NCBI GenBank assembly: GCA_949373085.1
Contig: CASICJ010000037.1
Span: forward strand, 1-57,653
DNA length: 57,653 nucleotides
Direction: 5' to 3'
Source of the DNA: an uncultured Verrucomicrobiales bacterium
GTDB lineage: Bacteria; Verrucomicrobiota; Verrucomicrobiia; Verrucomicrobiales; Akkermansiaceae
The position numbers and the translations under genes are program-made. Under the pieces are notes generated by a model. That model worked only from the letters and a program-made list of their open reading frames with translations. It did not search any database and was not told where the DNA came from. Shown piece after piece: positions 3,001-55,911 of the stretch. Position 1 is the first letter of the stretch; every line of letters begins with the position of its first letter.

Positions 3001-5537
3001 CCCCGTCTACCACCTCATCATTCGAAAAGAAGACTACACGGAAGCCGTCGCCTACAACAGCAGCAACCAAATCAATCAAGGAACCTCGGCCCGCTTCCTC
3101 TACAATTGGAATGCCACCATGGTCTACGATGGAAAGGTTTACGATAATATCCGCTTCCGCCTTCGGGGCGCCAACGGCCGCTACCAGGGCCGTGGAAAGC
3201 GCTCCATGCGCGTTCGCTTCAACGATGGGAAAGTTCCTTGAGGCCCGCGATCAAAACGGAAAAAAATTTAAAAATCCCTGGCGGACTCTCACTCTGGGAA
3301 AAGCAAACAGCAATCGCCAAACCATGACCTTCGGCCTCAACGAAGCGGTCAACTACCACCTCTTCTCAAAAATGGGTGTTCCCGCCGCAACACCACTCTT
3401 CGTGCAGTGGCGTGTCATTGATGATGAGGCCGAATCCCCCGACCAATGGCGCGGTGACTACAACGGAACTTACTTTGTCACGGAAACTTACGATGTCCGT
3501 TTCCTCGAACAACACGACCTCGAAAAAGGAAATCTTTACAAGCTCATCAATCAAACCAGTGACTGGCAACAACAGCAACGATACCAAGGCAAGTTTGCAC
3601 CCTTCAATGGTAGCGACCACAACACCATCGAAAGAAACCTCGATGGCAATGATTCCCCCGCATACATCGACGCCCACGTTAACCTAGAGAAGTATTATGC
3701 CTATCATGCCATGGTCGAAGCTCTCCGCCACTACGATTACTGGCCCTCAGCCAACAAGAACATGGTCTACTACTTCGAGCCCAACTATCTTCCCGCCAAT
3801 AATAATAGAGGTAAACTTTGGATCCTCCCCTGGGACACTGATTCCACCTGGGGACCTACCTACAACAGCGGGCATGATGTCGCTTACAATGCGCTTTTTA
3901 ATGCCAGCGGAGGAGGAAGCGACAACTCCTCCAATCCTACCCTCTGGCCTGCCTACTACAACACTGTCCGTGAAATGCGTGACCTCCTCTGGCAGGAAGA
4001 TCAAATTAACCAAGTGATCGATGACTTCGCCTCCATTATCGCTCCTCTTGTCCCCGCCGACTTCAACCGATGGAAGGGAGCGCCCTCAGATGCCGGGAAC
4101 TATAACCACCTCTCAGGCCCCGGTATCAATTCCCTCAACAGCTATGTTCAAGATATGAAAAACTTTGCCTTCTCCGGCGGTTCGTGGCCCGGCGGGAATG
4201 GCTCTGCCATGCCCCAGGCCAACGACAACGGGGCAAGTGGACGCCAGGGTCGCGACGCTTGGCTCGACATTCATCAGGGCGAAAATGGCGAAGCCTCCCG
4301 AATCCCTGCGACTCCAGTCCTAAGCTACAACGGCGCTCCCGGATTCCCCACCAACGCCATCTCTTTCCATACCACCTCATTCTCCGACCCCCAGGGTAAT
4401 GGAACGTTCGGCGCTCTTGAATGGCGCCTCGCCCGCATCGATCAACCCGGCGATCTTGAAATCGACGCTTCCTGGGAATCCGGCGAACTCACTAAATTCT
4501 CCAACGTCATCAACCTCCCCACCACAGCTATCAAATCGGGTTCCACTTACAGGGCTCGTGTCCGACACCAAGACAATACTGGACGCTGGAGCCATTGGTC
4601 TGCTCCAGTGACATTCACAACCACCCTTCCCAACATCACTCCTTACATTGATGGCCTTGTCATCACCGAGGTCATGTATCATCCCGCTGATCCAAGCCCA
4701 GTCGAAGTTGCTGCCGGATTCGATGACGACAATCTCTTTGAATATCTCGAGCTCAAGAATATCGGCTTGACTACTCTCGATCTCAACGACCTCCGTTTCA
4801 CTAAAGGAGTTGACTTTGACTTCCTCAACGCTAGCCAAACCAAGCTTGCTCCTGACGAAATCATCCTCGTCGTGCGCAGCATTCCTGCTTTCGAATTCCG
4901 CTACGGCGAAGGGCTTCCAATAATCGGAGAATGGAACTCTAATAATAAGCTCAGCAATAGCGGGGAGCGGTTAAAGCTTTCTTTTGGTGCCGGCGATGCA
5001 ATTCGTGATTTTGTCTACTCCGATTCTACCCCATGGCCAACCAGCTCCGATGGTTCGGGTCCATCGCTTACCCTCCTTGCTCCCACGATCGGTTCCGACC
5101 ACGCTCTTGCCGCCAATTGGCGTAGCAGCTTCGCCAGCACGGGAACTCCCGGGGTTGACGAATCAGACACCCCCTTTGAAGACTGGCTTGGTAATCAAGG
5201 AGAAACCAATGCTCTCAATTCTTTTGAAAAATCTGATCTCACCAACTTCCTAGCGTATGCTTTTGGTGCCGACCTTACCACGGAAAATCCTCGGCCGGCC
5301 CTGTCGATTATTGATCAACGTGCCACTCTCACCTTTCGTGTCCGCAATGGCAATAACCCTCTTCGATACCTTGTCGAGGTATCCTCCAACCTGGAAAACT
5401 GGCAAAGCGGCCCCAGCCACACAACCCAAATTGATCAGCCTATCGATAATGGTGATGGAACATCCACTCTTTCATTTCAAGCTGTCAATTCTCTCACCAC
5501 CAAACAATTTCTTCGGCTCCGCATCACCCTGCGGTAA
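1..5537 (+). pseudogene. CotH-kinase / lamin-tail giant surface protein, partial at 5' edge and split by two frameshifts
   Basis: One exported multidomain gene read in three successive frames. The reading frame is open from base 1, so the true start lies outside the window. Order along the DNA: LamG/concanavalin-like domain (about 1-570), Ig- and cadherin-like modules (620-1480), lamin-tail domain (1490-1900, core VINEIYANPP), beta-sandwich (1930-2460), CotH-type kinase fold (about 2990-4180, with WILPWDTDSTWG as the acidic metal-site region), Fn3-like segment (4310-4625), second lamin-tail domain (4650-5160) and a C-terminal module containing YLVEVSSNLENW. An extra T near 2620-2621 moves frame 1 to frame 2 (DPDGVA continues as SVSLEYQLVAPG). 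An extra A within 3230-3232 moves frame 2 to frame 3 (RFNDGK continues as FLEARDQNGKKF). Removing both bases restores one continuous protein. The intact paralogue at 35029-40599 supports this reading. Either a young pseudogene or two assembly errors. CotH proteins are known as protein kinases in spore formers; the role here is unknown. Confidence 0.85.
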
Positions 5538-29550: not shown

Positions 29551-31896
29551 CTACTGGATCTGGATGAGTTCGTGGGCGCTTAACAAAACTTGTGCATATT
29601 GATGCCAGCTTTCGGAACTTGGATTATCGCCGAGCCATTGCTTCCCAAGCTCAGTTTCGGCAGGATCTGGGTAGCGAGAATAAAGTTGCTGGTAGACTCT
29701 TTTGATTCGGTCTGAAACTGGCTCCTTCATTCCGTTAAGATGATCGCCCAAGGTTCTCGCTCGCTCGTTCATGAAAGGACTATTCATCATAAAGAGATAT
29801 TGCTGAGGCACGGTGCTGGTTGGGCGGGAAGCGCTTGTCGAAACCGCCGCCGGAAAATCAAAAAGGCGCAGGAAGGCATCGGACTCAAAACGATCGCCGG
29901 TGCGGCTGATGGTGGCGTAGAGAGTACGACGCTTACTTCGTAGAATCTCCCCATCGGGTTTTCCCCCGACTCTTTGATCAAGTTCGCCAGTGACCGCGAG
30001 CAAAGAATCACGCCATGCTTCAACTTCGAGCCGGCGCGGGTTCATTCGCCACAGGAAGTTATTATCACCATCCACCGTGAATTTTTCTTTGTCGAAGCGG
30101 CTACTCATTTGCCACGTCGAGGAAAGCATGATCTGGCGATGAAGCCGTTTCAGCGACCACCCGTGTTCGACAAAGTCGCGGGCGAGCCAGTCGAGTAGTT
30201 GGGGATGCGTTGGCTTCTCACCGAGAACCCCAAAGTTACTAGGAGTTCTCACTAGGGCTTTGCCAAAATGCCATTGCCAGACTCGGTTGACAATGACCCG
30301 GGCCGTAAGGGGATTATCTGGACCGGTGACGGATTGGGCCAGTTCACGGCGACCACTCCCCTCGGTATAGGGTGGTGGCGATTCTCCAGCGAGGATTTGA
30401 ATGAATCGGCGAGGAACCAATTCCCCCTTCTTCCGCAGATCCCCTCTCAAGGCAACGTGCATGTCATTCTTACCAGCCTCTTGAAGAACATGGGCCGTCT
30501 CATATTTTTCAGGAGCTACTTTCTTCAAACGATCCAACTCGGCACGCATCGCAGAGACCTTCTTCTTCGCCTCTTCATCCATCGATTTCTCGATGTCTTT
30601 CCGCTCGATCTTGAGCCTTTTACTCTCATCGTTAAGGAACTGATTGACCGCATTATTCTGGTTTTTGATTGCGTCCTGACCTTGCCTGTAGGCGTCAACA
30701 ATAGCTTGGGGAACGAGAGGATGCTCGCCAATCCGGGTGTTCTTGAAAATACCAGCAATTGCGTAGTAGTCCTGCGTCGTAATAGGATCGAATTTATGAT
30801 CATGACATCTCGCACAAGCGGTAGTTAAGCCAAGGAAGGCCCGGGAAAAGGTGTCAACTCGGTCCGAAAGAGTCTCGGCTTGGGCCTGTGCTTTAGCCTC
30901 GGGGTCTCCCCCATCAGAGGTGTAACTTGGGCCAACTACAAAGAACCCAGTCGCAACTGGGTCCGGATGATCATCAATGACATCCCCAGAAATCTGACGG
31001 GAAACAAACTCGTTATACGGCATGTCAGCATTTAGGGCATTAACGACCCAGTCACGATATCGCCAGGCATCTGGCAGCGCCCTATTATCACCAAATCCAC
31101 CCAGGCCATCGCTGTAACGTGCAACGTCGAGCCAATGTCTTGCCCAACGTTCGCCGTAATGATCCGAGGCTAAAAGTCGGTCGACAACTTTCTCGAAAGC
31201 ATTTGCCGCTGCGTCCTCGAGAAACCCCTCGACTTGTTCCGGTGTCGGCGGCAGCCCTGTCAAATCAAGATAGGCCCGGCGTATGAGAATCCGCTTTTCA
31301 GCAGACGCATTCGGCTCGAGGTTCTTTGCTTCAAGTCTTGAAAGTGTATAGTAATCAATCGGCGACCGAGGCCAGGAGCGGTTTTCGACTGGCGGCAAGT
31401 CGGATTTTGTAACTGGTTTGAATGACCAATGCTCCCGACGAAAACGATCCCAATCGTAGGCTTCCTTAGGTTGAGCTTGGGCGATTTCGGAGCTCGACTC
31501 CGCCCGAGGCCAGGGAGCACCCATTTTCACCCAGTCGGTCAAAATTTTGATTTGTTCATCCTTTAATTTTCCCTTTGGGGGCATCTCCATGTCTTCGTTG
31601 CGGTAATTCACCGCTTCGACGAGAAAGCTTTTCGAAGGATCTCCCGGTGTGAGAGCAGATCCTGAATCTCCTCCCTTCAGGAGCCCAGCCCGTGAATCGA
31701 GAAAAAGCCCTGCTTTCAATTTTCCTTTTTCCTCTGCCTTGGTCGAGTGACACCGATAGCATTTGTCGGCAAGAAGCGGCCGCACTTTATTCTCGAAAAA
31801 TTCAAGCTGTTCGGCGTTCGGCGTTGCCGTGTCGACCGCAACTGCCAAAAAAACCCCAAAAAAGTTGGCGATTAAAACGATCGAACCCACTTTCAT
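29551..31896 (-). CDS. PSD1-type c-haem protein (PSCyt1 / DUF1549 / DUF1553), compact form
   Basis: 781-residue exported protein. Signal peptide about 1-21. PSCyt1 domain with CYRCH (C46, C49, H50) and MPPKGKLKDEQ; DUF1549 with HYGERWARHWLDVARYSDGLG and CARCHDHKFDPITTQDYY; a short coiled-coil-like charged stretch (DESKRLKIERKDIEKSMDEE); DUF1553 with NRVWQWHFGKALVRTPSNFG, RRLEVEAWRDSLLAVTGELD. It lacks the sandwich insertion present in the 7316 paralogue. It is the first gene of a two-gene unit with DUF1501 and is divergent from the PEP-CTERM gene across 269 bp. Likely a periplasmic or surface haem protein; reaction unknown. Confidence 0.9.
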   Translation of the reverse strand: MKVGSIVLIANFFGVFLAVAVDTATPNAEQLEFFENKVRPLLADKCYRCHSTKAEEKGKLKAGLFLDSRAGLLKGGDSGSALTPGDPSKSFLVEAVNYRNEDMEMPPKGKLKDEQIKILTDWVKMGAPWPRAESSSEIAQAQPKEAYDWDRFRREHWSFKPVTKSDLPPVENRSWPRSPIDYYTLSRLEAKNLEPNASAEKRILIRRAYLDLTGLPPTPEQVEGFLEDAAANAFEKVVDRLLASDHYGERWARHWLDVARYSDGLGGFGDNRALPDAWRYRDWVVNALNADMPYNEFVSRQISGDVIDDHPDPVATGFFVVGPSYTSDGGDPEAKAQAQAETLSDRVDTFSRAFLGLTTACARCHDHKFDPITTQDYYAIAGIFKNTRIGEHPLVPQAIVDAYRQGQDAIKNQNNAVNQFLNDESKRLKIERKDIEKSMDEEAKKKVSAMRAELDRLKKVAPEKYETAHVLQEAGKNDMHVALRGDLRKKGELVPRRFIQILAGESPPPYTEGSGRRELAQSVTGPDNPLTARVIVNRVWQWHFGKALVRTPSNFGVLGEKPTHPQLLDWLARDFVEHGWSLKRLHRQIMLSSTWQMSSRFDKEKFTVDGDNNFLWRMNPRRLEVEAWRDSLLAVTGELDQRVGGKPDGEILRSKRRTLYATISRTGDRFESDAFLRLFDFPAAVSTSASRPTSTVPQQYLFMMNSPFMNERARTLGDHLNGMKEPVSDRIKRVYQQLYSRYPDPAETELGKQWLGDNPSSESWHQYAQVLLSAHELIQIQ

Positions 31897-40670: not shown

Positions 40671-43600
40671 ATGAAACAACCAATTCTCAAGATTTTCATG
40701 CTCGGCCTAGGCCTCGCCGGGCTAGCTGGCACAGTTTGGGTCATCACATCCATGATCAAAGAAGATCCGGATCGTTCTGGCTCAGGTCTTGCGCGCGGAC
40801 CATTCAAGACGCGCCGCGCAAAGGATTATCAACGACCAACTCAGGTTGCAGTGGACGGAGACTCGACCAGTATTGATTTTTCCAGCGTAGAAGCGAAAAC
40901 GGCTGCCGATTTACAATTAGAAAATCTTGATCCAGGCAAGGCCGGTTGGGACACCGAATTGCAAAGCGACTCTGCGGCCCGCGCGCTCACCCTTATTTTC
41001 GATAAAGATGGTGTCGATAAGCCGATCGCTGAGGACTTTCGGGGGACTCCGCTCAGGCCTGATTTGGTTGAAATCTATTCCAGTGATGGGATCCAAGTTC
41101 GGCGCTTGCAAGTCGGACAGTCTGGTGACGAAGTCCACGCTTTTGATAAGGTTACCTTTCTTAAGGCACTCCCAAAGCAACATGGCACTAGAAAGATTAT
41201 TCGTATTTTACGGAAGGGGAATGAGGGCAATTTCTCCACTCGGGTCATCGCTTCCACCCACGATGAGTCCGTCGTCGGGAAATGGCATCAAACAACCAGT
41301 GTATGGGATTGCAACTGGGAAGTCTCAGCTCTCAAATCTGACGGATTGCCACGTCTAAAACGACTCACGCTGCTTTCCCACGAAGAGGTCACTCGCACTG
41401 GAAAAAAACCGCTATTTGAAGATATCGCAGGCAACGTGCTCCCAGAAGAAATCGGTCCGCACGATTCGCCTGTGACACACTGGGCTCGATCCTTGACCAA
41501 AATCGATAATATAGATTTTTTTGGGCACCACGGAATCGCGATCGGCGATGCGAATGGTGATGGACTGGACGATCTGTATGTTTGCGACTGCGGCGGTTTA
41601 CCTAACCGCCTTTATTTGCAGAACACGGAAGGCACCACCCGCGATATTTCAGCGCAGGCCGGAGTCGATTGGCTCGAGTCTTCTACGTCGGCGCTGTTTC
41701 TTGATCTCGACAATGATGGTGATCAGGATCTGGTCGTCGCGACAGTGGCGCTGGTGCTTGTTTTGGAAAACGACGGGGAAGCAAATTTTTCGCTGCGCAG
41801 CGGAATCCCCGGCATGTCGAACCCACATTCATTGTCCGCAGCTGACTACGATAGCGATGGTGATCTCGATCTCTTCGTCTGTAATTATCTCGCTAATTCA
41901 GCCGCTGGCGGTGTCAGTGGATCTATGGCCGGACTACCATTGCCTTTCAACGATGCCGAAAATGGTGGTCGTAATGCGCTGCTGCGAAATGACGGCAGAC
42001 TACAATTTTCAGATGTTACGAGCGCCGCTGGAATTGCTACGGGTAGCGACCGTTGGAGCTTCGCCGCTTCATGGGAAGACTACGACAATGACGGAGATCA
42101 AGACCTCTATGTTGCAAACGACTTCGGCCGTAATAATCTATTCCGCAATGACGCCGGTCGGTTCACGGATATTGCTGCCGCTGCCGGCGTAGAGGACATT
42201 TCATCCGGGATGTCAGTGGCGTGGAGCGATGCCAATCGCGATGGGAGGATGGATGTCTACGTCAGCAATATGTTCTCCTCTGCCGGGGGGCGCGTTGCCT
42301 TTCAGCGACAGTTCGGCAAGGGCAATCCGGGCGCGACTGCCGATTTCCAACGGATGGCACGCGGCAACACCCTTTTCCTTGGGAGCGACAGGGGGAAATT
42401 TGATGATGTGAGCGAGTCTGCCGGAGTCAATGTTGGCCTCTGGGCATGGAGTTCTCAGTTCGCGGATCTCAACAACGATGGCTGGCAGGACCTGGTCGTC
42501 GCAAATGGTTACCTGACTAACCAGGTTGGCGGTCCCGACTTGTGAAGTTTCTTCTGGCGGCAGGTCGTGTCGCCATCACCGACGGATTTCACCGACAAAC
42601 AGGCAGTCGATACGTATACAAATTCTTGGGCGGCAATTATGGAATCGGCTCGCTCGGGAAGCTCGTGGAGCGGCTCGGAGACAAACCGTACTTTTCTAAA
42701 TACTGGTGGGGGTCAATTTTCGGACGCCTCTTATATTTCGGGATTTGGGTTTGATGATGACGGGAGGGCCTTGGCCATCACTGACTGGGATGGCGATGGG
42801 GATCTGGACCTGTGGGCGCACAATCGCACAGCACCTCGCTTACGTCTCCTGCGCAATAGCTCGCCAGAGGCGAATCGTTCGGTGGCATTCCGATTGAAGG
42901 GTGGAAAAAATTCGAATCGCGATGCGATTGGGGCCCGGCTAAAGCTGACGCTCTCCGATGGCAGCGAACTCCTGCAGACGCTGCGTGCAGGCAGTGCATT
43001 TCTTTCGCAATCATCAAAATGGATCCACTTTGGAATTGATCCGGGGGCGTCGCCATCTTCGCTACATGTGATTTGGCCGGATGGATTTGAAGAATCGTTT
43101 TCCGAAATCGCGGCAGGTGAGCGCTACCACATCGCGGAAGGGGGAGTGCTGAAGAAGGCCTCTCCGCGCGCGGCTCTTCGCTTAGGGCCGGCTCGGCAAC
43201 GACCGATCGCGCCGCAATCTCCTGAGCAGATGGTTTTACCAGGGAGAATTCCGCTTCCGAAGTTCCGCTATATCCCAGCGGGGAAATCGGAATCCGCCGG
43301 ACTTGCTCCAGGTGAGAAGCCGCTCTTCATAACCCTTTTCTCAGGAACCTGTGAATCCTGCACCGAGGAGTTGCGCGAATTCGCACGCGACGAGGAGCGC
43401 ATCAAGGCTGCCGGTCTCGAGGTGCTCGCACTCTCGGTCGACAAGTTGGTGGCCGGGTCCGATCATCTTGCAGCAGGCAAGCTAATCACTACGAGCAAGT
43501 TTCCTTTCCCAAGCGGGACAATAACGCTTCTCAGCGCAGATCACCTGCGCTTCTTACTCAAGTCGCTTTACGATTTCCCAGCATCATTCTCAGTCCCCAT

Positions 43601-44147
43601 CAGCCTCCTGTTAGATGAGGAACGGCGCTTATTCGCAATATATCGAGGTCGAGTCTCGACTGATCTTATCCTCCACGATGTCGCTTTCTCGAAAGCCAAT
43701 GACAACCAGCTTCGTGATCTTTCGGTCCCCTTCCCCGGCAGTTGGTTCACGCCCCTAATTACTCCATCGGAGCTTGCGGAGTTTATTGCAAACCCTTTCC
43801 ACAGCACCTTTCCTGATCAAAGGTTGCGCTATCTCGAACACGCGCTGGCGAGCCCGAACTCGAAAATTCGCAGCGCACGGCTAAAAGGAATAGTGAGTGA
43901 AGGCTATTACCAGCTCGCATTGCAGGAATATTCCAAGGGCAGCAAGAGCAAGGCGGCCGCTTATTACAAAAAAACACTCGCTATAAACCCTAGTAATTCC
44001 GACGCGCTCACCGACTTCGGTGCCCTCCTCGGAAATCAAGGGAAATTCAACGAGGCGGAAGCGCAGTTCCGCATGGCCTTGGAGCTCGATCCCGACAACC
44101 AGCTTGCCAAGAAAAATCTAGAACTGGTGATTCAGAGGCAACGATAG
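40671..44147 (+). CDS. FG-GAP / ASPIC-UnbV / thioredoxin-like / TPR protein with in-frame TGA: candidate selenoprotein
   Basis: The start is the ATG at 40671, preceded by GAGAG; a TTG at 40644 is less likely. An N-terminal membrane anchor (LGLGLAGLAGTVWVITSM) is followed by VCBS/FG-GAP blades about 270-620 with calcium-type loops (DANGDGLDDLY, DLDNDGDQDLVV, DYDSDGDLDLFV). At residue 625 the codon is TGA (42543-42545), after which the same frame continues without a break: SFFWRQVVSPSP, further blades, an ASPIC/UnbV domain about 744-822 (RDAIGARLKLTLSDGS), a thioredoxin-like domain about 883-1003 with CESC (C894, C897) and C-terminal TPRs about 1077-1153. Read through, the protein is 1158 residues. 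A hairpin directly after the TGA resembles a bacterial SECIS element. Alternatives: simple nonsense mutation, or two separate proteins. TGA is an ordinary stop elsewhere in the window (for example at 11821). Confidence 0.7.
42546..42580 (+). promoter_or_regulatory. Candidate SECIS hairpin immediately 3' of the in-frame TGA
   Basis: Nine bases after the TGA (starting 42555), TGGCGGCA (42555-42562) pairs with TGTCGCCA (42568-42575) over eight base pairs, one of them G-U. The loop is GGUCG. In the E. coli fdhF SECIS the loop is GGUC closed by a CA/UG neck at almost the same distance from UGA; here GGUC starts at position 21 counting U of UGA as 1, versus 22 in fdhF. The bulged U of fdhF is absent. 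The hairpin overlaps codons for WRQVV, so part of the similarity may come from protein constraint. Confidence 0.55.
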
Positions 44148-46059: not shown

Positions 46060-48582
46060 ATGGAAACTACAATGAATCTATTCCTCACTCTTTCCAAAAC
46101 CCGGCTTGGCGGTACTGTCTTTTGTTTCTTGGCCTCAACCATTTTTTGTAGCGCTCAGAAATCATTGCCATCGGAAGATCCTCTCTCCTTGGCCAAAACC
46201 CGAGCCATCGGGCGCGCGAATTCAGCACTGTTGGCAAAAAAACAAGCGATCACAACGGAGAACGGAAAGCCATCTGCCAATCTCGCAGACTTCCAGAAGC
46301 ATATCTCACCGATTCTCACCAAGACCTGTGTTCAGTGCCATGGCCCCAAGAAAGCCAAAGGAAAATTTCGGATCGATACACTTGATCCCAATCTCATCGA
46401 GGGAGGCGACATCGATTGGTGGCTGGAGGTTCTCGATGCCGTAAGCAATGACGAGATGCCTCCAGAAGATGCCGATGTGAAACTCACAAGTGGAGAAATC
46501 AGTGAGGTCTCAGAATGGTTAAGTTCTGAAATTCAGAAAGCTTCAACTGAGCGCCGTCATGAGGGTCGCCATTCATCGTTTCGTCGCATGGCGCGATACG
46601 AATACGATTACGCGTTGCAAGATCTGCTAGGACTCTCCTACTCGCTCTCTGGAAACCTTCCTCCTGAAGCTGATTCGGAAAATGGATTCAAAAACAGCTC
46701 AGAAACGCTGCAAATGTCTGCGATGCAGTTTGAAACTTATCGTGAGACAGCGCTCAAAGCGCTTGAACACACCACCGTAGTAGGTGAGCAACCCAAAGCA
46801 GTTGTCTATCAGCTTCCAAATTCAGACGAGGATTCATCGGCCTTTGATCGCGACCAGGTTAGCAAAACTCACATCCTCACCCAAAAAACAAAAAAAGGTC
46901 AGGCTCCTCCAGAAACCGTCATTTTTGACCAGAGGAATCGATCCGTGAAATTTAATCTGAGTAATCACCTGCCCGACCAAGGCACGATGCGCATCACTCT
47001 CCGGGCCGGACGCTCGACGATGAAGGCTGATGAATTTGCGAGCCTCCATTTTATTTTCAGCGCTCATACAAGTAACAACGCCAACTTTTCCGAGGTCATC
47101 AGTAAACGCGCTATCCCGGTGACAGGCTCGATGACTGAGCCACAATTAATCCACCTAGATATTCCTCTCAGCGAAATCCAGCGAAACCCATTCCGAAACA
47201 ACAAGGAAACATTCCCGCGACGCGATGAATTTCTAACCATTGAATGCCAGTCAAGAACACGGGAAAAGGAACCGCTCAGTATCACCATTGATTTTATCGA
47301 AATTAGCGCACCCTTTTTCGAACAATGGCCGCCCCAAACCCATCGTGATATTTTCTTTAAAAGCCCGAATAAAAACGAAGAGGTTAAGTATGCCCGTGAG
47401 ATCTTAACTCGATTCATGGAACGAGCTTGGCGGCGGCCCGTAAGCTTAAATGAAGTGGCCCCCTTCGTCACGCTGTTCATGAAATATCGCCCTGAGTTCT
47501 CGACGATGGAGGAAGCGATGGTTGAGGTGCTGGCAACAGTCCTTGCAACACCGGAGTTTCTTTATTTGACACAAGAGGACTCTCCGACAATTAGCCAAAC
47601 AGAATTAGCCAGCCGGCTTTCCTTTTTTCTTTGGTCCAGCATACCAGACAAAGAGCTTAGAGACCTTGCGAAGGAAGGAACACTGGGAGATCCCACAGTT
47701 CTGAAGGCTCAGATCACACGAATGTTGGCCGATCCCCGATCCGCAAGATTCTCGAAACACTTCGTTCAGCAATGGCTCGGTTTGGATGGACTTAATAGCG
47801 TAGTCCATGTGACCGACAGCGCACTGATGGAAGCCATGCAAGAAGAGCCGATTGCCTTTTTTAAATATGTCCTTAACAGCAACCGGAACCTAATGGACTT
47901 CCTTCACTCGGACTACGCTGTGTTGAATGAACGGATGGCTACGCATTACCAAATTCGCGATGTTTATGGCCCTCAATTCCGCAAAGTTCCAATTGAACCC
48001 AATACCAATCGCGGCGGTATTCTGACAAATGCCGCAATCCTCACTATGAATTCCGACGGCAAGGATTCTCACCCGCTCAAACGCGGAATCTGGATGCTTG
48101 AACGAATTCTCCATGACCCGCCGCCACCTGCCCCACCAAATGTTCCAGAAGTCGATTTGACCAATCCAAAAATCTTGGAGATGACGCTCAAGGAGCGCAT
48201 CGTTGATCACCGCAATAAACCAGCCTGCATTTCATGCCATGCTAAAATAGACCCTTGGGGAATTGCTTTCGAAAACTATGACGCCTTGGGTATCTACCGG
48301 ACCAAAATCAAAAATAAACCGGTTGATGCAACCTCAGCCTTGTTCAACAAACAGGAATTAGCTGGGATGGAGGGCTTGAAGCGCTATCTGCTGGCGGAGC
48401 GACAGGATCAATTTGCGAGAGCCATGGTTCACAAAATAACCTCTTACGCCCTTGGCCGCCCGTTGACTTTTAGCGACCATGCTGAAATCGAAGCGCTGAC
48501 ATTTCAATTTCGAAAAAAGGAAGATCGTCTACGTGATTTGATACACTTGATCATTTGTAGCAGTATCTTTAATTCTAAGTAG
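46060..48582 (+). CDS. DUF1592-type c-haem protein (PSCyt1 / DUF1587 / DUF1595 / DUF1592 / DUF1588 / DUF1585)
   Basis: 840-residue exported protein. Signal segment about 15-32. PSCyt1 haem motif CVQCHG (C90, C93, H94). Then DUF1587 (RRMARYEYDYALQDLLGL), DUF1595 (ERAWRRPVSLNEV), DUF1592 (SQTELASRLSFFLWSSIPD), DUF1588 (RGGILTNAAILTMNSDGKDS) and DUF1585 (MVHKITSYALGRPLTFSD). A second CxxCH, ACISCHAKIDPWG, marks the DUF1588 end. The alternative start at 46072 is only four codons later. It is coupled to the DUF1552 gene, whose GTG overlaps its TAG stop. The pair is the counterpart of PSD1 with DUF1501. Reaction not known. Confidence 0.9.
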   Translation: METTMNLFLTLSKTRLGGTVFCFLASTIFCSAQKSLPSEDPLSLAKTRAIGRANSALLAKKQAITTENGKPSANLADFQKHISPILTKTCVQCHGPKKAKGKFRIDTLDPNLIEGGDIDWWLEVLDAVSNDEMPPEDADVKLTSGEISEVSEWLSSEIQKASTERRHEGRHSSFRRMARYEYDYALQDLLGLSYSLSGNLPPEADSENGFKNSSETLQMSAMQFETYRETALKALEHTTVVGEQPKAVVYQLPNSDEDSSAFDRDQVSKTHILTQKTKKGQAPPETVIFDQRNRSVKFNLSNHLPDQGTMRITLRAGRSTMKADEFASLHFIFSAHTSNNANFSEVISKRAIPVTGSMTEPQLIHLDIPLSEIQRNPFRNNKETFPRRDEFLTIECQSRTREKEPLSITIDFIEISAPFFEQWPPQTHRDIFFKSPNKNEEVKYAREILTRFMERAWRRPVSLNEVAPFVTLFMKYRPEFSTMEEAMVEVLATVLATPEFLYLTQEDSPTISQTELASRLSFFLWSSIPDKELRDLAKEGTLGDPTVLKAQITRMLADPRSARFSKHFVQQWLGLDGLNSVVHVTDSALMEAMQEEPIAFFKYVLNSNRNLMDFLHSDYAVLNERMATHYQIRDVYGPQFRKVPIEPNTNRGGILTNAAILTMNSDGKDSHPLKRGIWMLERILHDPPPPAPPNVPEVDLTNPKILEMTLKERIVDHRNKPACISCHAKIDPWGIAFENYDALGIYRTKIKNKPVDATSALFNKQELAGMEGLKRYLLAERQDQFARAMVHKITSYALGRPLTFSDHAEIEALTFQFRKKEDRLRDLIHLIICSSIFNSK

Positions 48583-48617
48583 TGACCAAAAGCCGGATGA
48601 CGCCCAAAACCGCTGAC

Positions 48618-49996
48618 ATGAATCGCCGAAACTTCCTTCAAGGAACAGGCATTGCTCTTGGCTTGCCGTGGCTAGAGACCTTTGCGGCAGATGATTCAAA
48701 TCCGGACCCTGCTCCCAAACGCTTTCTTAGTGTTTATCATCCCGATGGGGTCGGTCTTCCAGTCAAAGATGATCCAGCTTGGAAGGATTGGAGTTGGTTT
48801 CCCCGAGGTGGCGAAAGGAAGTTTCAAACTCACCAAAGTACTCGATGTTCTCGAGCCCTTGCGGAAGGAAATCACGATCTACTCAGGACTCTCCCATCCG
48901 GCAGCCAGAACGAGTTCACGGTCATTCCAATGCCGACCAATATCTGACCGGCGCAGACACAGGCGGGCATGGAGCCTACAAAAACTCGATCTCAATCGAC
49001 CAGGTTTATGCCGAACAAATAGGACGATTCACACGTCATTCCTCGTTGGTAATGTCGACCAACGGAGGGGTGGGCGGCCCAAGAGGAGCCCAGACCCAAT
49101 CCTACAGTCGGAGCGGACGGCCCATCCCTGCCTTAAATCACCCCAAGCAGATTTTTGACATGCTCTTTGTCACAAGCGGCAAAGAAGCAGCTGCGAAATT
49201 GGCCCGAAGCAAAAGCGCCCTGGATCTTCTCATCGCTAACACCCACTTGTTGGGCCGCAAACTTTCTCGACACGATCAAGGAACCCTAGAGCAGTATCTT
49301 GATGCGGTTCGCGATACTGAAGTGAAGTTAGAGAAGGCCCGGCAATGGATCGACAACCCAATTCCCAAGGTGGACACCAGCAACCTAACTCTGGAAGCCG
49401 GACCCAAGGAAGCGCAGCTTTACTTCGAGACGATGTATGAGCTGATTTATCTCTCCTTCCTGAGTGATTCGACACGCGTTGCGACCTTCCAACTTGGTCG
49501 CGAAAATGGCGGCGGACCTCATAACCTTCTGTCAACGGCCGTTGGCTTGGGAAATGCCCATGCCCTAACGCACGCCGTCAAAAAGCCCAAAGGCTGGGAG
49601 AATCTGGGAACCTACAACCGCTACCAAGCAGAAGAATTTGGCCGTTTCATCCAGAAGCTGAAGGACACAAAAGAGCCGAACGGGCAAGGAAACATCCTCG
49701 ACAACACCTTTGCAATGCATGGTTCCGCGTCCAGCAGTTTCCACCTCTCCCGCAACTACCCCATCATATCTGCAGGCGGAAAAAACTTAGGCTTCGAGAA
49801 TGGTCGCTATCTCAAATTCGGAAAAGGCAATGAGGACAACCAAGCCGGCGCCGGAATTGTGAGCGACAGCGGATGGCGGGGTAAGGTGGAGATTGAAGAG
49901 CTCCCACTCTCCAAACTCTTTATCACCATCTTGCAGAGACTCGGGGTAGAGGCGAATTCCTTTGCAGGAATTACCGGAACTCTAGAGCGGGTGTAA
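48618..49996 (+). pseudogene. DUF1552 protein, Tat-exported, split by two frameshifts
   Basis: The ATG at 48618 begins a Tat-type signal (MNRRNFLQGTGIALGLPWLE); GTG at 48582 and ATG at 48597 also lie in frame. Three frames are used. Frame 3 encodes the start through DWSWFPRG. An extra A within 48814-48816 shifts to frame 1 (GSFKLTKVLDVLEPLRKE, YSGLSHPAAR). An extra A at 48909-48910 shifts to frame 2 (RVHGHSNADQYLTGADTGGH to the end, including NNPIISAGGKNLGF-like C-terminal segments). Both corrections restore the DUF1552 order HGHS, SISIDQ, YFETMYELIYLSFLSD. Domain of unknown function; partner of the DUF1592-type protein. Could be a young pseudogene or an assembly error. Confidence 0.85.
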
Positions 49997-52817: not shown

Positions 52818-54500
52818 ATGCTCAGATTTTTTCTCCTATCTCTATTTTTACTGCTTCAGGTTGAGGGTTCTAAAAGGCCAAACGTTGTCCTCATTATCTG
52901 CGATGATCTCAACGATTACGTAGAAACGCTTGGAGGCCATCCTCAGGCGAAAACACCCCATATGAGGCGTCTTATGGAGCGCGGAGTCTCGTTTACTCAA
53001 GCGCACTGCAACATTCCAATCTGCAACCCTTCAAGAGCCAGTTTTATCACGGGCCTATATCCTCACACCTCACAGCTCTACGGCTTTGAAAAGTGGCGAG
53101 ATAACGAGATCACCAAGAACTCGAGAACCTTGATGGACCACTTCCGGAAGAATGGCTACCACACCCTCGGAACTGGGAAAATCATGCACAATGGCGAACG
53201 CCAAGAGTGGATTCACTACCAGAATGATGCGGACTACAGCCCCCTCGCCCACCGTGAGGGAAAAAATATTGCGCACCCTGATATCCCTGCTCCATTCCGC
53301 GACGAGTTCGAAGCCATCGATGGTTCATTTGGACCACTGCGAAAGGTGAAGGCTCCCTTTTCTTGGAAATCCGGAAACTGGAAGCGCATGAAAGATTTTC
53401 GCTACGAATCAGAGGACGATCGCGATCTCACTGCCGATGAACTCAATGGAAAATGGGCTGTCGAAAATCTTAAAAAACTTGCCACCACGGATAAGCCCTT
53501 CCTCATGGGAGTTGGATTCATTCGTCCACACACTCCACTCATTGTCCCCCAAAAATATTTTGACCTCTTCCCACTCGAATCCCTCGAGCTTCCCGTCATA
53601 AAAAGAGGAGACGTTGAGGACACCTTTAAACAAACCGTCAGTTCTGTGGAAGATGATCGAAGTGGTGATCGAGGATCAAAGATTTATGACACCCTGATTG
53701 CTTCTTTTGGAGGAAAGCGCGAACTCGCTCTCAAGAAATTTATCCAAGCCTACCTCGCCTCAGTTGCCTCTGTCGATGACCTCATTGGCGATATTCTTGA
53801 TACGATTGAAGACTCACCCCTTAACGATAATACCATCATTCTTTTAACTTCAGACCACGGCTGGGGGATGGGTGAGAAAGATTACCTCTACAAAAACTCT
53901 CTCTGGCAAGAAAGCACACGGGTGCCTCTTGTCATAGCAGGCCCGAATTTAGCTCAGGCTAAAACGTGCCAAAAACCAGTCAGCCTCATCGACCTTTACC
54001 CAACCCTCATTGATCTTTGCGGCCTTTCAAAAGAAACAAAAAAATCCGCGGAAGGTCGGCCACTCGATGGATATTCGCTCAAACCTCTTTTGCTGAATCC
54101 CGCTGGGAAATGGTCTGGGCCAGATGCCGTCCTCACTGCCATGTATAAATGGGCAAACTACTACGACCCCGCAAAGCAAAACTATGCTCTTCGCGATCAA
54201 AATTGGCGCTATATCCGATACGAAAATGGCAAAGAAGAGCTTTATGACGTTAAAAATGACCCCCATGAATGGCATAATCTTGCCCTTAATCCCGATCACC
54301 AAAAAACTTTAAAAGCATACCGGAAGGCGATGCTCGCAAGAGTTCCTGCCTCCATTCCTCCACCCAAACCCACCAAGAAAGATGCCGAAATTTGGAAAGA
54401 TCGTTATTTCAAAAAGCATCCAAGCGCTGATGCCGATCAAGATGGGAAACTCACTTGGCCAGAACTGCAAGCACACAAAAAATCTCAACTTAAAAAATAG
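52818..54500 (+). CDS. Sulfatase, S1-type, iduronate-2-sulfatase-like
   Basis: 560-residue exported sulfatase. Signal peptide about 1-17. Metal aspartates in VVLIICDDLND (D29, D30). CNPSR carries Cys69, which would be converted to formylglycine. Other motifs: GTGKIMHNG, GVGFIRPHTPLIVP, LLTSDHGWGMGE. The IRPHTP and DDLND features resemble iduronate-2-sulfatase-like S1 sulfatases. The C-terminal tail has an EF-hand-like DADQDGKLTWPE. It is first of three sulfatase genes spaced 7 and 13 bp apart. Likely substrate is a sulfated polysaccharide; linkage specificity not readable. Confidence 0.9.
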   Translation: MLRFFLLSLFLLLQVEGSKRPNVVLIICDDLNDYVETLGGHPQAKTPHMRRLMERGVSFTQAHCNIPICNPSRASFITGLYPHTSQLYGFEKWRDNEITKNSRTLMDHFRKNGYHTLGTGKIMHNGERQEWIHYQNDADYSPLAHREGKNIAHPDIPAPFRDEFEAIDGSFGPLRKVKAPFSWKSGNWKRMKDFRYESEDDRDLTADELNGKWAVENLKKLATTDKPFLMGVGFIRPHTPLIVPQKYFDLFPLESLELPVIKRGDVEDTFKQTVSSVEDDRSGDRGSKIYDTLIASFGGKRELALKKFIQAYLASVASVDDLIGDILDTIEDSPLNDNTIILLTSDHGWGMGEKDYLYKNSLWQESTRVPLVIAGPNLAQAKTCQKPVSLIDLYPTLIDLCGLSKETKKSAEGRPLDGYSLKPLLLNPAGKWSGPDAVLTAMYKWANYYDPAKQNYALRDQNWRYIRYENGKEELYDVKNDPHEWHNLALNPDHQKTLKAYRKAMLARVPASIPPPKPTKKDAEIWKDRYFKKHPSADADQDGKLTWPELQAHKKSQLKK

Positions 54501-54507
54501 ACGATCT

Positions 54508-55911
54508 ATGAAGATTTTCTTCGCCCTCTTCTCTCTAACCCTGGCTATTACAGGCCAAGAGAAACCCAACTTGATTGTCATCATGACAGACGACATGGGT
54601 TATGCTGACGTCGGATTTAATGGGTGCAAGGATATCCCTACACCACACATCGACTCGATTGCTTCCAATGGGGTCAGGTTCACCTCAGGCTATGTTGCCT
54701 ATTCGGTTTGTGGCCCGAGCCGTGCCGCTTTCATAACCGGCCGATACGGACAACGATTCGGCTTCGAGCGAAACCCACAGTACCGCACTCAGGACGAAAA
54801 TATGGGACTCCCATTGGATGAAGATACGATCGCTTCAGCCCTTCGGAAAGTGGGCTATTATTCCGGGGTGATTGGGAAATGGCATCTTGGTGCTACAAAA
54901 AAACACCACCCTCTCAAGCGGGGTTTCCAAGAGTTTTACGGGCACCTTGGAGGGGGGCATCAATACATGCCCGAGATGCTTAATATCGAAGATAGCTATG
55001 CGGCAAAGGATGAACCCCAGAGCTACCGCACTTGGATTCTCAAAGATCACAAGCCGGTTCGCCCTCGTAAGTACCTTACCGATGATTTTTCCGACGAAGC
55101 GGTCAGCTTTATCGAGCGGAATCATAACAAGCCCTTCTTCTTATTTCTCTCCTATAACGCGCCACACACCCCGCTCCAAGCACCGCAGAAGTATCTCGAT
55201 CGCTTTCTTAACCTTAAAGATAAAAAACGCAGAACCTATGCCGCTATGGTCAGTGCTGTCGATGATGGCGTAGGGCGCGTCCTTAGCTCCTTAAAAAAGA
55301 ACCAGATTAATCAAAACACCCTCGTCTTTTTTCTCTCGGACAATGGAGGCCCCAGCACCAAAAATGGCTCTAACAATGCCCCCCTTAGAGGAAACAAAGG
55401 CGATGCTTGGGAAGGGGGTTGGCGGGTTCCTTTCGCAGTTCAATGGCCACTTGGACTTCCGAAAGGAAAAGAATATGATCACCCCGTTGTTTCGCTCGAT
55501 ATCATGGCCACGATTACAGCAAGAGCAGAAGCACCAATCTCCATCGATCGACCGCTCGACGGTGTGAATCTCATCCCTTTCTTAACCGGAAAAAAAGAGG
55601 GGGCACCTCATCAAGGGATTTTTCTTCGCAAGTTTGACTCCGGATCGACAGCCGTCCGTAGTGGCAACCACAAGCTGGTGACCTATGAAAAAAAAGACTT
55701 CACCGGGCTTTATGATCTTCACGAGGATATCGGAGAATCCAAAAACATCCGCGATCAATCCCCGGAGGAAATCTCCCAATTGAAGATGCTTTGGAAGAAT
55801 TGGAACAAGTCTAATATCGACCCAGTGTTCAAAGGTCTTATCCACACCCCCGCTTGGCAAAAGAAGCGGAATCAAGCCACTCGTAAGAAAGCTAAAACAG
55901 ATCACAAGTAA
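54508..55911 (+). CDS. Sulfatase, S1-type, arylsulfatase-like
   Basis: 467-residue exported sulfatase. The ATG at 54508 gives a clean signal peptide (MKIFFALFSLTLAITGQ) seven bases after the previous stop; the in-frame extension to 54382 overlaps that gene and is not used. Motifs: IVIMTDDMGYAD (D28, D29), SVCGPSRAAFITG with Cys68 as the formylglycine site, GVIGKWHLG, YNAPHTPLQAP, FFLSDNGGP. Resembles the large S1 arylsulfatase/N-acetylgalactosamine-sulfatase-like group. Second gene of the three-sulfatase unit. Confidence 0.9.
   Translation: MKIFFALFSLTLAITGQEKPNLIVIMTDDMGYADVGFNGCKDIPTPHIDSIASNGVRFTSGYVAYSVCGPSRAAFITGRYGQRFGFERNPQYRTQDENMGLPLDEDTIASALRKVGYYSGVIGKWHLGATKKHHPLKRGFQEFYGHLGGGHQYMPEMLNIEDSYAAKDEPQSYRTWILKDHKPVRPRKYLTDDFSDEAVSFIERNHNKPFFLFLSYNAPHTPLQAPQKYLDRFLNLKDKKRRTYAAMVSAVDDGVGRVLSSLKKNQINQNTLVFFLSDNGGPSTKNGSNNAPLRGNKGDAWEGGWRVPFAVQWPLGLPKGKEYDHPVVSLDIMATITARAEAPISIDRPLDGVNLIPFLTGKKEGAPHQGIFLRKFDSGSTAVRSGNHKLVTYEKKDFTGLYDLHEDIGESKNIRDQSPEEISQLKMLWKNWNKSNIDPVFKGLIHTPAWQKKRNQATRKKAKTDHK

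Follow-up and report, generated by a model that had tools for sequence, protein, structure and literature searches.

A single in-frame TGA at positions 42543-42545 of the window, by which we mean the whole analysed stretch of 57,653 nucleotides from an uncultured Verrucomicrobiales bacterium, is almost certainly read as selenocysteine (Sec). It is residue 625 and the only internal stop of a predicted selenoprotein gene (40671..44147, plus strand, like all its parts below) that encodes 1158 residues when TGA is counted as Sec. The likely start is ATG 40671, and close homologues can be aligned from residue 1. It is also highly probable that this reading holds together with its proposed bacterial SECIS, a hairpin at 42555..42575. 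A preliminary description of the window had suggested a possible selenoprotein with a SECIS-like hairpin, and this suggestion is supported by the Sec machinery, by the TGA/Cys column in homologues, and by the conservation of the hairpin. The predicted Sec codon, the candidate SECIS, the machinery and the replacement of Sec by Cys are each evident from comparison of related sequences.

The protein has FG-GAP repeats followed by an ASPIC/UnbV domain (residues 752-819, 42924..43127; Pfam). The best FG-GAP_3 stretch covers residues 470-531, and one FG-GAP repeat (residues 592-615) lies just before the TGA. FG-GAP and UnbV_ASPIC score above the Pfam gathering cut-off in the window protein and are matched in all 40 members of alignment A2 at E up to 1e-3. 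A thioredoxin-like domain of the ResA/TlpA type, at about residues 852-990 (43224..43640), is indicated by the AF2 model, by a Foldseek match to ResA and by a profile match to TlpA/ResA. The AhpC-TSA family is under the Pfam cut-off in the window protein (23.3 vs 26 bits), the domain being clear by fold, and is matched in 31 of the 40 A2 members at E up to 1e-3. The CxxC motif of this domain is CESC (residues 894-897, 43350..43361), both C894 and C897 being at least 90% conserved in A2. The C-terminal part consists of helical repeats with TPRs (residues 1032-1157, 43764..44141; Pfam and the AF2 model). Translation and domain searches thus agree with the preliminary description of a 1158-residue frame with one TGA at residue 625 and FG-GAP, ASPIC/UnbV, thioredoxin-like and TPR content. 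The coding sequence is conserved on both sides of the in-frame UGA, as in bacterial selenoproteins.

The neighbours of this gene in the window are Planctomycete-type cytochrome/PSD, DUF1592-DUF1552 and two sulfatase genes (29551-31896, 46060-49996, 52818-55911). No constant partner gene was found when the window-neighbour genes were searched in 48 named loci, several of them with short flanks. The two commonest neighbour query types, one of them a sulfatase, were observed in eight of the 48 loci each.

Homologues were collected from 192 related genomes with at most three candidates scored per genome, absences thus being unproven. At E up to 1e-3 the protein is matched in at least 147 of the 192 genomes, and one TGA is present in nearly all strong matches listed. 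In all 30 close loci the stop falls at residue 625 and the codon is TGA. At the same column, 40 further loci have TGA (24) or Cys (6), nine lack the motif, and one could not be aligned. The 80 named loci, obtained by scanning named genomes, comprise 52 with TGA, one with Ala (L136), one with Gln (L139), 25 without the motif and one not aligned; the TGA loci belong to Verrucomicrobiota (Akkermansiaceae, Roseibacillus), Planctomycetota and Acidobacteriota. Finally, 20 additional stretches yielded nine TGA (from the source genome and G510), three Cys, three Asp, one Gly, and four sequences without the motif. Cys occupies the column in nine loci (L054, L055, L057, L070, L071, L072, L193-L195), and Asp (L196, L197, L199) and Gly (L198) were observed in distant relatives. 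The Ala of L136 (at 7225) and the Gln of L139 (at 5321) stand exactly at the Sec position, and both loci keep the SFFWR motif. Six loci whose alignments lack the motif (L148, L149, L152, L155, L156, L167) were not counted as Cys forms. Where the motif is kept, homologues thus have TGA or Cys, as the preliminary description would have it, with Ala, Gln, Asp and Gly as exceptions. Position 625, as predicted from these codons, is not always a chalcogen.

In alignment A3, in which the two TGA subfamilies are combined with four Cys forms, the Sec column, Asp two positions before it and Trp four positions after it are invariant, as are the later Gly and Glu of SxSGxE. Alignment A2 excludes L097, for its ambiguous bases, and L125, for its broken frame; all 40 of its rows have U625, written as C. 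When 41 of the 52 named TGA loci were read in the matched frame over 639-1219 codons, exactly one stop was found in 40 of them, L125 being the frame-broken exception. Downstream of the TGA the frame stays open and conserved in homologues.

The source genome (3.41 Mb, 72 contigs, 81.1% complete) contains a tRNA-Sec gene above the Rfam cut-off (53.6 vs 47 bits), identified by ARAGORN as SeC(tca), that is, with the anticodon UCA. The genes selA (483 bits), selB (317.8 bits) and selD (268.7 bits) all score above their curated cut-offs; selA, selB, selC and selD, named in the preliminary description as the genes to look for, are thus all present. The selD gene itself has an in-frame TGA in ASCGG*ASKLGQAE, which we take to be the usual Sec site of SelD, and is split over two frames (contig C8 of G000, 1589-2519; L012, L013). 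A selA match was obtained for 89 of the 192 related genomes, in 87 cases above the cut-off. The TGA form was found, among the matches listed, in 51 genomes, and selA is matched in all 51, compared with 89 of 192 overall (hypergeometric probability 1.7e-22, ignoring relatedness). For 48 of these 51 genomes, all but G008, G020 and G095, the position of the TGA at the Sec column was checked; in one TGA-form genome (G158) selA is a fragment under the cut-off. Three genomes with TGA inside the match but off the Sec column (G132, G147, G150) are excluded from the 51. Some selA-positive genomes have no TGA form among the matches listed. Of the genomes with Cys forms, G010, G132 and G150 contain selA, and no selA match was found in G111, G144 and G147.

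The candidate SECIS has a stem of eight base pairs formed by the 5' arm 42555-42562 (UGGCGGCA) and the 3' arm 42568-42575 (UGUCGCCA), with the loop GGUCG at 42563-42567. The stem starts nine bases past the TGA, and 17 nt separate the TGA from the loop. Folding reproduced the hairpin of the preliminary description in its stem length, loop and distance from the stop; the lack of a bulged U, also pointed out there, is seen in the fold as eight pairs without a bulge. The 40-mer starting at the TGA has a minimum free energy of -14.2 kcal/mol, a second small hairpin included. The bSECIS model, as given in the legend of Fig. 2 of PMC13188914, has a loop of 3-9 nt, an upper stem of 4-16 bp, G in the first two loop positions, a UGA-to-loop distance of 16-37 nt and a free energy of at most -7.5 kcal/mol. 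By these limits the window hairpin (5-nt loop, 8 bp, G first, 17 nt, -14.2 kcal/mol) falls within the model. Compared with shuffled sequences the z-score of the 40-mer is only -1.71, and nine of 200 shuffles fold as well; one copy of the hairpin alone is not exceptional. It is the conservation of the TGA, of the inner six pairs and of the codons that places the hairpin far beyond chance. A search of window positions 42300-42900 against Rfam gave no match.

This conservation was analysed in 110 TGA sites, of which 107 are distinct; merging of identical sequences left 97 distinct 33-mers. Their division into groups A (79 sequences) and B (18 sequences) follows codons +5 and +6, counted from the TGA; as this division uses letters of the stem itself, the contrast in register between the groups is partly built in. 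In group A, the pairs 19/25, 18/26, 17/27, 16/28, 15/29 and 14/30 form in 78, 74, 76, 79, 74 and 75 of the 79 sequences, respectively. The outer pairs of the window stem are poorly kept (13/31 in 31 and 12/32 in 42 of 79). The pair 17/27 joins the third base of an Arg codon to the first base of a Ser, Ala or Pro codon and occurs as GU, AU, GC, CG and UG. It forms in 76 sequences where 61.3 are expected, and the pair 19/25 in 78 where 72.5 are expected (p about 5e-5 for each; 20,000 permutations, ignoring relatedness). These are two of the five group-A pairs permuted; no covariation was found at 18/26, 14/30 and 13/31, the first two being too invariant to show any. A tree was constructed from residues upstream of the Sec site for 78 of the 79 group-A rows. 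On this tree, whose bootstrap is unsettled and whose long branches were flagged, a minimum of 33 changes is needed for the type of the 17/27 pair and of three, which may be gains or losses, for its C-G form. Group B, mostly of the WRTVV type, has a shifted register with the loop GGUC, and its pairs form in 18, 16, 18, 18, 15 and 14 of the 18 sequences. Pair counts and tree together show a hairpin conserved in relatives with compensatory changes, the pattern that the preliminary description had proposed to look for.

The preliminary description had also cautioned that the hairpin might in part mirror conservation of the WRQVV residues. Codon usage answers this: relative to the background of the same genes, GTG is used at.97 vs.37, TCG at.92 vs.22, CAG at.95 vs.61 and GTC at.81 vs.40. 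Codons +6 to +9 are strongly skewed, and codon agreement declines past +10. Codons +1 to +3, ahead of the stem, are skewed too, Ser at +1 the most. Where the codon directly after the TGA (window 42546-42548) encodes Ser (76 cases), AGT or AGC is used in 98%, compared with about 35% in the same genes. The same caution is answered by members in which the protein is altered and the hairpin kept (RVT, HVV); thus a member from the source genome (L180/L209) encodes WGRVAP, yet retains a stem with the GGUCG loop. As a control, eleven homologues without Sec were folded, and nine of them have no such stem. The other two, the near-identical Cys forms L071 and L072, have a bulged stem at the same place, without the GGUC loop.

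In the AF2 model, built with Cys at position 625 (mean pLDDT 85.3, pTM 0.87), residue 625 starts a helix (624-633) within an insertion between propeller strands. The best Foldseek match in the PDB is mouse CRTAC1 (E 5.0e-24), and the best redox fold is ResA (2.3e-6). The N-terminus, judged by eye, resembles a signal or membrane segment. The TGA is very probably decoded by the standard route of SelA, SelB, SelD and tRNA-Sec, directed by the hairpin 42555-42575. The product would then be a CRTAC1-like beta-propeller of the FG-GAP/ASPIC type, probably exported, in which Sec opens a short helix. In this extracytoplasmic protein, Sec could be the reactive residue of a redox enzyme, active in thiol/selenol-disulphide exchange or in peroxide or sulphoxide chemistry, and in the subfamily of the window it might be recharged by the fused ResA/TlpA-like CxxC domain. 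This picture of an exported redox protein with a reactive, CxxC-served Sec is drawn from the AF2 model, the fold matches and the conserved U625, C894 and C897, and we offer a redox role of Sec tentatively, as having a little less than an even chance.

Alternatively, Sec may bind a metal or another ligand in a structural, sensing or transport role and take no part in redox catalysis. U625 follows the invariant D623, and shorter frames in subfamily B suggest that there is no general CxxC partner; both observations agree with a binding role. A passage of PMC13188914 predicts the binding of atoms or moieties, mostly metals, for about 20% of the known selenoprotein families, which also favours this possibility. 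On the other hand, redox use agrees with the position at the N-terminus of a helix and with the presence of a fused ResA-like domain, and a binding role seems unlikely, if not to be dismissed.

Another possibility is that the TGA is a regulated stop, producing a short protein and a separate C-terminal one, with Sec inserted only under a plentiful supply of selenium. That termination at Sec codons can be partial is well known and would fit such a switch, as would a downstream GTG (42567) that gives an ORF of 526 aa. However, the TGA lies between conserved parts of the propeller, with FG-GAP before it and FG-GAP and ASPIC after it, and U625 and the surrounding residues are conserved as a protein site in which Cys substitutes; a switch is therefore very improbable. 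Reassignment or readthrough of TGA to Trp or another ordinary amino acid, with which an open frame counting TGA as a residue is compatible like any decoding, is rejected as having almost no likelihood, since 40 of the 41 homologues read have a single stop in the gene, TGA terminates six of the 27 window ORFs that reach 280 aa or more and so is a normal stop too, Cys forms occur at the column, and tRNA-Sec is present. A lone in-frame stop in a MAG gene usually means a pseudogene or a sequencing or assembly error, here a nonsense change splitting one gene in two, and this MAG is incomplete (81.1%, 72 contigs) with its own selD in two frames, but such an origin is hardly conceivable and is rejected, as the same TGA stands in the same column in separate assemblies of three phyla, the frame past it is open and conserved, and selA occurs in every TGA-form genome listed.

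With the TGA taken as a Sec codon, the family appears to be large in some genomes. In the source genome, TGA is accompanied by the motif at 12 sites, 11 of which fold a stem; the remaining one (L183/L212) has no stem of such shape. The DNA pattern TGA-x-F-F-W occurs there at ten sites, compared with four in the reversed control, those on contigs C17, C37 and C40 being members. Ten relatives were searched closely with at most 77 candidates scored, counting a TGA inside the match without placing it at the Sec column. As lower bounds, matches with an in-frame TGA number 17 each in G068 and G026, 14 in G060, 13 in G188, 12 in G020, and nine each in G131 and G190. G022 has one listed match, without TGA and ending ahead of the Sec column, and no match was found among the candidates scored in G001 and G024. 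A phylum-wide search, with at most nine candidates scored per genome, gave matches in at least ten of 387 genomes at E up to 1e-12, with TGA in two of them (the source genome and G510); as sampled, the family looks patchy across the phylum. In Planctomycetota bacterium bin33 (L147), three subfamily-B TGA genes stand in a row within about 6 kb, at 4656, 7264 and 9878. At one locus on contig C36 of the source genome (L182), subfamily-B TGA sites lie on both strands, one on each. The open frames of subfamily B are often shorter, roughly 800-1050 aa, and because many are so, the fused CxxC partner is probably not general to the family. COX1-family heme-copper-oxidase genes (PF00115) were found in all 16 TGA-form genomes searched, which suggests that these bacteria respire oxygen.

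Gene callers would normally cut such genes at the TGA, and a large family may therefore be mis-annotated across many genomes. A CRTAC1-like propeller would join the list of selenoproteins, and single genomes would have an unusually large selenoprotein set from one family. The two hairpin registers provide a natural test of the SECIS requirements of SelB. Selenoproteins are rarely retained in aerobic bacteria according to a passage of a 2026 review, and this family would be placed in bacteria with heme-copper-oxidase-family genes. It is conceivable, if somewhat doubtful, that an old and widespread family of exported Sec-dependent beta-propeller enzymes accounts for a main part of selenium use among Verrucomicrobiota, Planctomycetota and some Acidobacteriota that respire oxygen, and that its copies may suit different cell-surface substrates. 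If true, this would contradict the view that aerobes rarely keep selenoproteins.

No FG-GAP, ASPIC/UnbV or CRTAC1 family is among the 119 prokaryotic families and subfamilies of Table 1 of PMC13188914 (2026), nor was a motif like DLUSxxWR found in this table. The family is not mentioned in the main-text portions covered of PMC13188914, PMC12013277, PMC5330540 and PMC4807772, term searches within the text of PMC9312934 and PMC2398784 gave no match for it, and no report of it came up in literature searches. In NCBIfam release 20.0, the window protein matched five models, all in the TPR end and far under cut-off, and 38 Sec-segment sequences matched two weak models, none of them a selenoprotein model. 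This is apparently an uncatalogued selenoprotein family, its location of Sec and its fold having been found in no catalogue, although priority is not proven. With the bacterial selenoproteins of Table 1 of PMC13188914, as far as the table describes them, it shares the in-frame UGA, a bSECIS directly downstream, Cys homologues and the Sec machinery.

The window hairpin resembles the SECIS of E. coli fdhF in the GGUC of the loop, the CA/UG neck and the closeness to the UGA, and differs from it in lacking the bulged U, in the loop GGUCG and in the 17 nt from UGA to loop. The fdhF element has GGUC in the apical loop, a CA/UG neck and a bulged U in the upper stem of a hairpin that follows soon after the UGA. 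The domain at residues 852-990 shares the thioredoxin fold and the CxxC motif with the ResA/TlpA oxidoreductases; unlike them, it is fused behind an FG-GAP/ASPIC propeller, and the Sec residue belongs to the propeller, outside the CxxC. Mouse CRTAC1 (9etn) has the FG-GAP propeller and ASPIC/UnbV in common with the window protein (TM 0.72 by target length; profile match 4.7e-31), whereas the five aligned profile stretches, by mapped profile positions, miss the Sec segment, and miss the thioredoxin-like and TPR parts as well.
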